NCBI RefSeq assembly: GCF_001636295.1
Contig: NZ_CP014209.1
Span: 1,426,001 to 1,490,000, forward strand
Length of the DNA: 64,000 nucleotides
Origin: Isoptericola dokdonensis DS-3
GTDB taxonomy: Bacteria > Actinomycetota > Actinomycetes > Actinomycetales > Cellulomonadaceae
Direction: 5' to 3'
Shown: positions 39,193 through 40,576 of the stretch, in pieces
How positions within the stretch are numbered: position 1 is the first letter of the stretch
Layout of the letters: each line of letters starts with the position of its first letter
The notes under the pieces: model-generated
The model's database searches: none
Told to the model about the DNA's origin: nothing
What the model saw: the letters and a program-made list of their open reading frames with translations, nothing else
Position numbers and translations under genes: made by a program

Positions 39193-39198
39193 TAGGGT
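39193..39198 (+). promoter_or_regulatory. -10 element of nhaA
   Basis: TAGGGT. Transcription would begin near 39205 and leave a leader of about 80 bases, unlike the leaderless genes around it. No clear -35. Confidence 0.5.
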
Positions 39199-39204
39199 GT
39201 TCGC

Positions 39205-39286
39205 CAGTGGTGAGCCGGGAAGTCTGGTCGGTGGCACCGGCTGAGACGCCGGTCGACGAACCGACACCTCCTCGAAGGAGCACACC
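39205..39286 (+). ncRNA. Structured nhaA leader, candidate ion-sensing riboswitch
   Basis: About 82 bases before nhaA with competing stems. AGCCGG (39213-39218) can pair with CCGGCT (39237-39242), or ACCGGC (39236-39241) with GCCGGT (39248-39253); the two share bases and exclude each other. Then CTCCT-CGA-AGGAG (39268-39280) hides the Shine-Dalgarno AAGGAG. This is the layout of a translation-control riboswitch. Known nhaA leader motifs (nhaA-I and nhaA-II) are Li+ riboswitches. Whether this RNA belongs to one of them needs a covariance search. Confidence 0.55.
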
Positions 39287-40576
39287 CTGAGCACCGACGT
39301 CTCCACCCCGTCCTTCGGCGCCCGCCTCGCCCGCTGGGTCTCCCGCGAGACCACCGGCGGGGCGCTGCTCATCGGCGCCGCCGTCATCGCGCTGATCTTC
39401 GCCAACTCGCCCTGGCGCGACGCCTACACCTCGCTCACCGAGTTCGTCCCCGGCGGCGACCTGCTGCACCCGCTGCACCTGGACCTCTCCCTCGCGGCCT
39501 GGGCGGCGGACGGGCTGCTCGCGGTCTTCTTCTTCGTCGTCGGCCTCGAGCTCAAGCACGAGTTCGTCGCCGGCTCCCTGCGCAGCCCGAAGCAGGCGGG
39601 CGTCCCGATGCTCGCGGCGGTCGGCGGCATGGTCGTCCCCGCCGCCATCTACGCGGTGCTCGTCGTCGCGCTGGGCGACTCGAGCGCCCTGCACGGGTGG
39701 GCCATCCCGACGGCGACCGACATCGCCTTCGCGCTCGCCGTGCTCGCCGTCTTCGGCAAGGGCCTGCCCGTCGCGATCCGCACGTTCCTGCTGACCCTCG
39801 CCGTCGTCGACGACCTCCTGGCCATCACGGTCATCGCGGTCTTCTACACGTCCGAGATCCACTTCGGCTACCTCGCCGCCTCCCTCGGCGTCATCGCCCT
39901 GTTCGGCTGGTACGTGCGGACCCGGCGCCCCCACTGGTGGCTCCTCGTGCCGCTGTTCGCCGTGGCCTGGACCTTCATGCACGCCTCCGGCGTGCACGCG
40001 ACCGTCGCGGGCGTCCTCATGGGCTTCACCGTGGCCGCCCGGCCGACGCACGGCGAGACCGAGTCCCGCACCCACTACTACGAGCACTGGGTCAAGCCCT
40101 GGTCGCAGGGGATCGCCCTGCCGGTGTTCGCCTTCTTCTCCGCCGGGGTCAACCTGGTCGACGGCGGCGGCCCCGGCGAGCTCCTCGGCCAGCCGATCGT
40201 CGCCGCCATCGTCGCCGGACTCGTCGTGGGCAAGGTGATCGGCGTCCTGGGCACCACGTGGCTCGTCACCCGGGTCACCCCGCTCCGGCTGGCGCAGGGC
40301 ATCGGCGTGCGCGACCTGCTGCCCGTCGCCCTGCTCGCCGGGATCGGGTTCACCGTGTCCCTGCTCATCGCCGAGCTCTCGTTCGAGCACGGCTCCGAGC
40401 ACACCCTCGGCGCGAAGGCCGCCATCCTGCTGGCGTCCGTGATCGCCGCGGTGCTGGGGGCGTTCATGCTGCGCTGGGACGCACGCCAGGAGCGCAGCGC
40501 CGACATGAACCGCGACGACGTGCCCGACGAGGTCACGTCCTACATCGGCGACGAGCAGGACCGCGAGACCCACTGA
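39287..40576 (+). CDS. nhaA: Na+/H+ antiporter NhaA, CTG start
   Basis: Swaps internal Na+ (or Li+) for external H+, 429 aa. The first recognisable NhaA segment (GARLARWVSRETTGGALLIGA, then ALIFANSPW) lies upstream of any in-frame ATG, GTG or TTG. The frame is closed by TGA at 39242, so the start must lie between. AAGGAG at 39275-39280 points to CTG at 39287. The next standard start, 39608, would lose about 107 residues with TM1-TM2. Conserved parts: TDIAFALAVLAVFG, the paired aspartates in TLAVVDDLLAITVIAVF, and GIGFTVSLLIAELSF. A Glu/Asp-rich C-terminal tail follows the last TM. Confidence 0.93.
   Translation: MSTDVSTPSFGARLARWVSRETTGGALLIGAAVIALIFANSPWRDAYTSLTEFVPGGDLLHPLHLDLSLAAWAADGLLAVFFFVVGLELKHEFVAGSLRSPKQAGVPMLAAVGGMVVPAAIYAVLVVALGDSSALHGWAIPTATDIAFALAVLAVFGKGLPVAIRTFLLTLAVVDDLLAITVIAVFYTSEIHFGYLAASLGVIALFGWYVRTRRPHWWLLVPLFAVAWTFMHASGVHATVAGVLMGFTVAARPTHGETESRTHYYEHWVKPWSQGIALPVFAFFSAGVNLVDGGGPGELLGQPIVAAIVAGLVVGKVIGVLGTTWLVTRVTPLRLAQGIGVRDLLPVALLAGIGFTVSLLIAELSFEHGSEHTLGAKAAILLASVIAAVLGAFMLRWDARQERSADMNRDDVPDEVTSYIGDEQDRETH

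Follow-up and report, generated by a model that had tools for sequence, protein, structure and literature searches.

The nhaA leader of Isoptericola dokdonensis DS-3 carries at its predicted 5′ end a 25-nt sequence belonging to what is almost certainly a real and widespread leader RNA element, absent from the Rfam copy searched here. The element itself is well supported; as to its function, a new class of small 5′-terminal translational riboswitch, sensing Na+ and acting as an ON switch, is in our judgement an evenly balanced interpretation, in which we infer the ligand Na+, its direct binding without a protein, and the ON direction. The features of the window (the whole 64-kb stretch of DNA that was analysed) on which the argument is built are as follows.

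39193..39198, forward strand: putative −10 box TAGGGT, from sequence, with a predicted transcript start at ~39205-39209
39209..39233, forward strand: conserved 5′-terminal RNA element GGNGN-GCCG-GGAAGNCUGGU-CGGC/U-R (nt 1-25), from the consensus of 130 copies
39213..39233, forward strand: closing non-Watson–Crick pair nt 5.25, usually U.G or C.A, from coupled columns
39214..39232, forward strand: stem P1, 39214-39217 with 39229-39232, and its 11-nt loop 39218-39228, from compensatory double changes
39227..39265, forward strand: alternative helix GUCGGU 39227-39232 / ACCGAC 39260-39265, from sequence and excess complementarity
39236..39253, forward strand: family-specific hairpin P2 ACCGGC/GCCGGT, kept in ten family leaders
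39268..39280, forward strand: local hairpin CUCCU-CGA-AGGAG pairing the Shine–Dalgarno (SD) sequence, from sequence, not general among relatives
39287..40576, forward strand: nhaA, Na+/H+ antiporter, from TIGR00773, with a CTG start codon

The product of nhaA scores 306.3 bits with TIGR00773 (cut-off 254), which identifies it as NhaA, and CTG 39287 is the earliest possible start in its frame; a CTG stands at the same position in 16 of 17 genus leaders compared (L002-L014, L016, L019 and L020 among them), with ATG in locus L004. The leader runs from ~39205 to 39286, 3′ of the −10 box, which begins 16 nt ahead of the element's first G, ~3 nt beyond the commonest spacing. Folding energy alone gives no signal in this leader (z 0.05; 96 of 200 shuffles fold equally well or better). 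The original prediction of a special leader in front of nhaA is borne out, with a conserved part that differs from the structures it named. The pairings AGCCGG 39213-39218 / CCGGCT 39237-39242 and ACCGGC 39236-39241 / GCCGGT 39248-39253, described there as mutually exclusive stems, are present in the sequence and do share bases. So is the proposed SD-burying hairpin (CTCCT 39268-39272, loop CGA, AGGAG 39276-39280), but it is not conserved in several same-genus leaders (it is absent, for example, from L003, L005 and L006) and is accordingly rejected as a general mechanism. The suggested alignment of related leaders separates these structures: ten family leaders retain ACCGGC/GCCGGT, with one of its pairs double-changed in two of them, and several same-genus leaders lack CTCCT/AGGAG. 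The conserved core is neither the overlapping stems nor the SD hairpin but the element at 39209-39233, whose supported main stem (GCCG 39214-39217 / CGGU 39229-39232) is not among the structures named in the original prediction.

Across 130 copies the element has the consensus GG-T-G-[TC]-GCCGGGAAG-N-CTGGTCGGC-[AG], with sharp edges. At the DNA level, the leader finds matches in 85 of 200 family genomes (E ≤ 0.001), and among the matches listed 17 of 18 same-genus genomes are represented, its own genome counted. A covariance model of the element (26 positions), searched against the class with strict filters, matches 294 of 394 genomes at E ≤ 1, a figure in which matches near E 1 will include chance hits; the best matches listed have E values near 1e-5. 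The 18-nt core with ≤2 mismatches occurs in 156 of 396 phylum genomes, several of the two-mismatch matches being chance occurrences inside coding sequence and the reversed-pattern control being sparser, not empty. An exact core scan of named species genomes gives at least 119 loci; among the matches listed, 77 of 80 lie under names that we take to be actinobacterial, the others being two Chloroflexi metagenome-assembled genomes (MAGs) and one Mesorhizobium. The element in the Chloroflexi MAG contigs (L068 and L135, the downstream frame of L135 clustering with Na_H_Exchanger proteins) may reflect transfer, a deep origin or a binning error. Some contigs (L081, L084, L126, L130 and L140) hold two or three copies, some of them divergent between two genes. 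The plasmid search returned no match, and of five exact core matches in viral contigs none has GGNGN in front.

A conserved leader RNA with covarying structure, as riboswitches require, is what the comparison of copies gives. Of the four pairs of P1 (GCCG/CGGC; the first is G.U in the window copy), three have compensatory double changes, a result reached by 0 of 500 shuffles, and all four pairs are present in 195 of 208 pattern matches among the loci collected. These locus sets are partly selected, because several searches required the exact core; stem variants were found with a pattern leaving the stem positions free together with 20 sequence stretches, and all eight promoter-linked variants retain P1 through double changes, namely GUCG/CGAC (L215, L217, L218 and L219), GCUG/CAGC (L216) and UCCG/CGGA (L220-L222). 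A further locus, L226, has the stem GGCG/CGCC and lacks a clear promoter. RNAalifold, applied to ten leaders, predicts a different hairpin at the element instead of P1; it was rejected, having 0 double changes in the 89 rows that were also used for P1 and 87% of cells paired, like its shuffles. The energy model practically never folds P1 unaided; if P1 is the active form, a role must therefore fall to a ligand or to the order of folding.

At the base of P1, the columns of positions 5 and 25 share more mutual information than any others of the 50 compared (196 copies), and the coupling is seen again in 98 other copies. Pooled over 228 copies, the pair is U.G in 89, C.A in 60, A.G in 27 (the window copy, A39213.G39233, being of this type), A.A in 18, U-A in 13 and U.C in 9, followed by C.C (4), U.U (3), C-G (2), A.C (2) and C.U (1). 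The Fisher value of 3e-29 ignores relatedness; the coupling nevertheless arose more than once, since both U.G and C.A are present within 7 of the 12 genera that could be named and had at least two copies each. U.G and C.A pairs share a common wobble geometry, something for which an operator in the DNA would have no need.

The element is at or near the 5′ end of its RNA and in one orientation, as follows from the fixed spacing of a TANNNT promoter motif 15-11 nt before its first G in 86 of 129 copies of the first set and 85 of 112 in the other loci, against 6 and 2, respectively, in the control region, and 1 and 1 at the mirrored position. In the loci outside L061-L179, stem and promoter occur together in 90 cases, the stem alone in 8, neither in 14, and a promoter without the stem in 0. 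An upstream peptide starting at the GTG of GGTG was considered and rejected: the codon is lost where position 3 is not T, and with ~20% of the 130 copies thus lacking GTG there is no conserved upstream-peptide frame.

The 3′ arm of P1 is also the part of the element that is complementary to the downstream leader; the alternative helix and P1 are hence mutually exclusive. When nine-nt windows of the element were compared with the next 55 nt against shuffled controls, the first set gave z values of −7.4 (nt 15-23), −6.7 (nt 16-24) and −3.3 (nt 14-22), the remaining 13 windows ranging from −1.3 to +2.9. In the other loci, for which 7 of the 16 windows were evaluated, nt 15-23 and nt 16-24 again stand out (z −5.3 and −8.6), nt 14-22 does not (0.1), an unexpected signal appears at nt 1-9 (−3.2), for which hairpin P2 may be the cause, and the rest are positive. 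The motif CCGACC, expected in 10.9 of 130 leaders, occurs in 32 of them. An SD was called in 112 leaders; in 27 of these the end of the paired stretch lies three nt into the SD, and in the others the stretch adjoins it, lies elsewhere or is weak. The base opposite U15 is A in 21, G in 12, C in 7 and U in 2, and that opposite C15 is G in 7, C in 4, A in 2 and U in 1, which is only suggestive of coupling between loop base 15 and its downstream partner.

How the exchange of the two helices would affect the ribosome is less clear-cut, the modelled accessibility giving mixed evidence on direction. In 130 of 178 promoter-linked copies an SD could be called; forcing P1 in these leaders makes the predicted SD slightly less free (mean −0.052 versus −0.004 in spacer-shuffled controls, p 0.0015), the freedom falling by >0.1 in 44 and rising by >0.1 in 15, a result at odds with a simple ON model; for the window leader, the calculation has the SD buried either way (0.051 and 0.059). 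Opening the ribosome site together with 8 or 14 upstream nt is predicted to cost 3.1 and 4.0 kcal/mol less with P1, compared with savings of 1.6 and 1.9 kcal/mol with shuffled spacers (p 8e-7 and 7e-10), a test in part predisposed to this outcome, as the partner lies within the stretch being opened; opening the SD and start alone shows no gain from P1 (1.03 versus 1.07 in controls).

The genes behind the element share one physiological theme, NhaA and other cation transporters, with a minority of other genes. About half of the copies precede nhaA: 71 of 129 downstream frames (≥60 aa) of the first set cluster with NhaA, as do 49 of 92 in the other loci with repeats kept in the count. The rest of the first set comprises Na_H_Exchanger clusters of 7 and 6 (named via representatives), CBS (5), a membrane cluster (4), alpha/beta hydrolase (4), CitMHS/ArsB-type (3), ABC (3), PPDK (3), DUF2254 (2), one other cluster of 2, and 19 singletons, TrkH, TrkA_N and a Na/Ca exchanger among them. 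Because each cluster takes its name from one or two members, and the frames were selected with a simple coding score, single assignments may be wrong. Scans of other loci identified Proton_antipo_M proteins (L035, L047 and L207), a P-type ATPase (L037), H_PPase (L044), Na_H_Exchanger (L237 and L245), CitMHS_2 (L253), a Na/Ca exchanger (L261) and an ABC protein (L210); in the fragments scanned, NCBIfam matches below cut-off were to Na+/H+ antiporter subunit A (L040) and sodium-translocating pyrophosphatase (L044). Mrp and pyrophosphatase genes are also among the targets. Counting against a Na+ switch, some targets are not obviously related to Na+, namely the alpha/beta hydrolase, PPDK, CBS, DUF2254 and TrkH genes. 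A small CBS-domain family follows the element at L074, L152, L161, L167 and L175 (one member scanned), with further CBS-type cases seen by eye at L235, L236, L238 and L258, of which L236 has no NCBIfam match. Genes with a PPDK_N domain (phosphoenolpyruvate synthase-like), whose sodium function is not obvious, follow it at L100, L128 and L140 (minus strand). The UCCG/CGGA copies are followed by ABC-transporter genes, identified at L210 in a scan and at L214 and L221 from the resemblance of their protein starts; two of L220, L221 and L222 are the same places as L210 and L214. These copies are perhaps a subfamily with its own targets. With its wide conservation, covariation and gene context, the structured, switch-like leader tied to ion transport that had been foreseen is upheld as a putative switch.

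It is worth comparing the element with the ion-responsive RNAs already described. The Rfam copy used holds 4227 models, DUF1646 presumably included. It gave no match at gathering level within the 64-kb window, no nhaA family match in the 501 nt around the leader (E ≤ 10), and no nhaA-I, nhaA-II or DUF1646 match at the element in 17 related loci (E ≤ 5). Two other matches were taken as chance, AS-traG near the window leader (E 3) and, in L031 alone, radC at the element (29.3 bits, threshold 40), both sub-threshold. Membership in nhaA-I (Li+-I) or nhaA-II (Li+-II) was rejected because their covariance models found no match, and membership in DUF1646 (Na+-I) likewise for want of an Rfam match, its model being presumed part of the set. 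Searches of the main texts in the literature collection used, including sequence-based ones, found no description of the element, nor is it described in the portions consulted of PMC9337991, PMC9646797, PMC11109978, PMC12892944, PMC6106888 and PMC3765725. According to the available part of PMC9337991, the Na+-I riboswitch (DUF1646 motif) is likewise a leader RNA of cation transporter genes, and controls the same kind of genes; an ON switch for a monovalent ion is the parallel proposed here. The Na+-I riboswitch differs in its pair of extended stems, P1 and P2, and, in the case tested, a transcription terminator, whereas the element has one 4-bp 5′ hairpin. The nhaA-I and nhaA-II RNAs, as the accessible part of PMC9646797 presents them, sense Li+, lie mostly before nhaA, and respond to Li+ in translational reporter fusions; the element differs from them in its range of targets (Mrp, CPA-type exchangers, pyrophosphatase) and its lineage. 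The preQ1-I riboswitch likewise combines a hairpin aptamer of very small size with a 3′ partner close to the SD site, and differs in sequence, genes and layout.

In the predicted mechanism, the first ~25 nt of the mRNA would form the hairpin P1 with its almost invariant loop and the 5′ GGNG, and the wobble-type pair 5.25 would close the base of P1, the resulting fold being a putative ion pocket. Without ligand, nt 15-24 would pair with the CCGACC-type stretch beside or overlapping the SD, keeping translation low; the ligand would stabilise P1, leaving the downstream strand free for ribosome entry. The fuller proposal, that a ~25-nt 5′-end aptamer, among the smallest natural ones, serves Actinomycetota as a main Na+ sensor, with several copies in many of their genomes and a closing pair that favours wobble (U.G/C.A) over Watson–Crick geometry, is one we hold tentatively, at a little under even likelihood.

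Among other explanations, it is less likely, though the most probable of the rivals, that the same RNA switch answers to something other than Na+, be it pH, Li+, K+ or a second messenger, for instance c-di-AMP. The C.A pair at 5.25, carried by 60 of 228 copies, would suit a pH signal. C.A pairs can depend on protonation. Most copies, however, have U.G, A.G or another combination, and with C.A in the minority the pair alone is no general pH sensor. The presence of TrkH and TrkA_N genes behind the element, the link of NhaA to alkaline stress in Streptomyces (SCO3564; available part of PMC12892944) and the sensing of Li+ by nhaA-I and nhaA-II RNAs (PMC9646797, in part) all leave room for such signals, against which Na+ is the best common factor of Mrp, pyrophosphatase, the Na/Ca exchanger and NhaA. 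A highly divergent nhaA-I, nhaA-II or DUF1646 RNA has only a minute probability: the target genes are of the same kind, as the parts consulted of PMC9337991 and PMC9646797 indicate, but at the thresholds given above neither the window, the leader nor the related loci match the Rfam models of these families, the term 'actinobacteri' is absent from the main texts of both papers, and DUF1646 RNAs have two extended stems (PMC9337991, in part). Of the two forms of ion riboswitch originally envisaged, a new class therefore fits better than a divergent member, ion binding being putative.

Two further readings dispense with a small ligand. An RNA-binding protein or trans RNA might act on translation or decay through the leader hairpin, which we consider improbable; the element is a short stem with an invariant loop, a kind of structure that proteins also recognise, and ligand binding by it is itself a prediction, but a compact fold is suggested by the GGNG at the 5′ end together with the coupling at 5.25, and one 3′ half is used by both helices. 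Still more improbable is a DNA operator just 3′ of the promoter to which a dimeric regulator binds, with the stem no more than an inverted repeat. GCCG...CGGC does form such a repeat, and its distance from the −10 box is fixed; symmetric changes of half-sites would look compensatory too; yet neither both orientations nor symmetric half-sites, as expected of an operator, were found, the element occurring in one orientation only (mirrored promoter in 1 of 129 and 1 of 112 copies), with an invariant, asymmetric loop and a 5.25 pair that avoids symmetric combinations (C-G in 2 and U-A in 13 of 228), and an operator would have no use for complementarity to the leader.

If the Na+ riboswitch interpretation is true, an RNA of ~25 nt would be the sensor of Na+, or of a close signal, for much of the phylum, including antibiotic-producing Streptomyces, and would show how small an RNA can be and still read a monovalent ion. 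It would also supply a list of target genes to test, the unexplained ones included, and make Na+ sensing in these bacteria directly testable.
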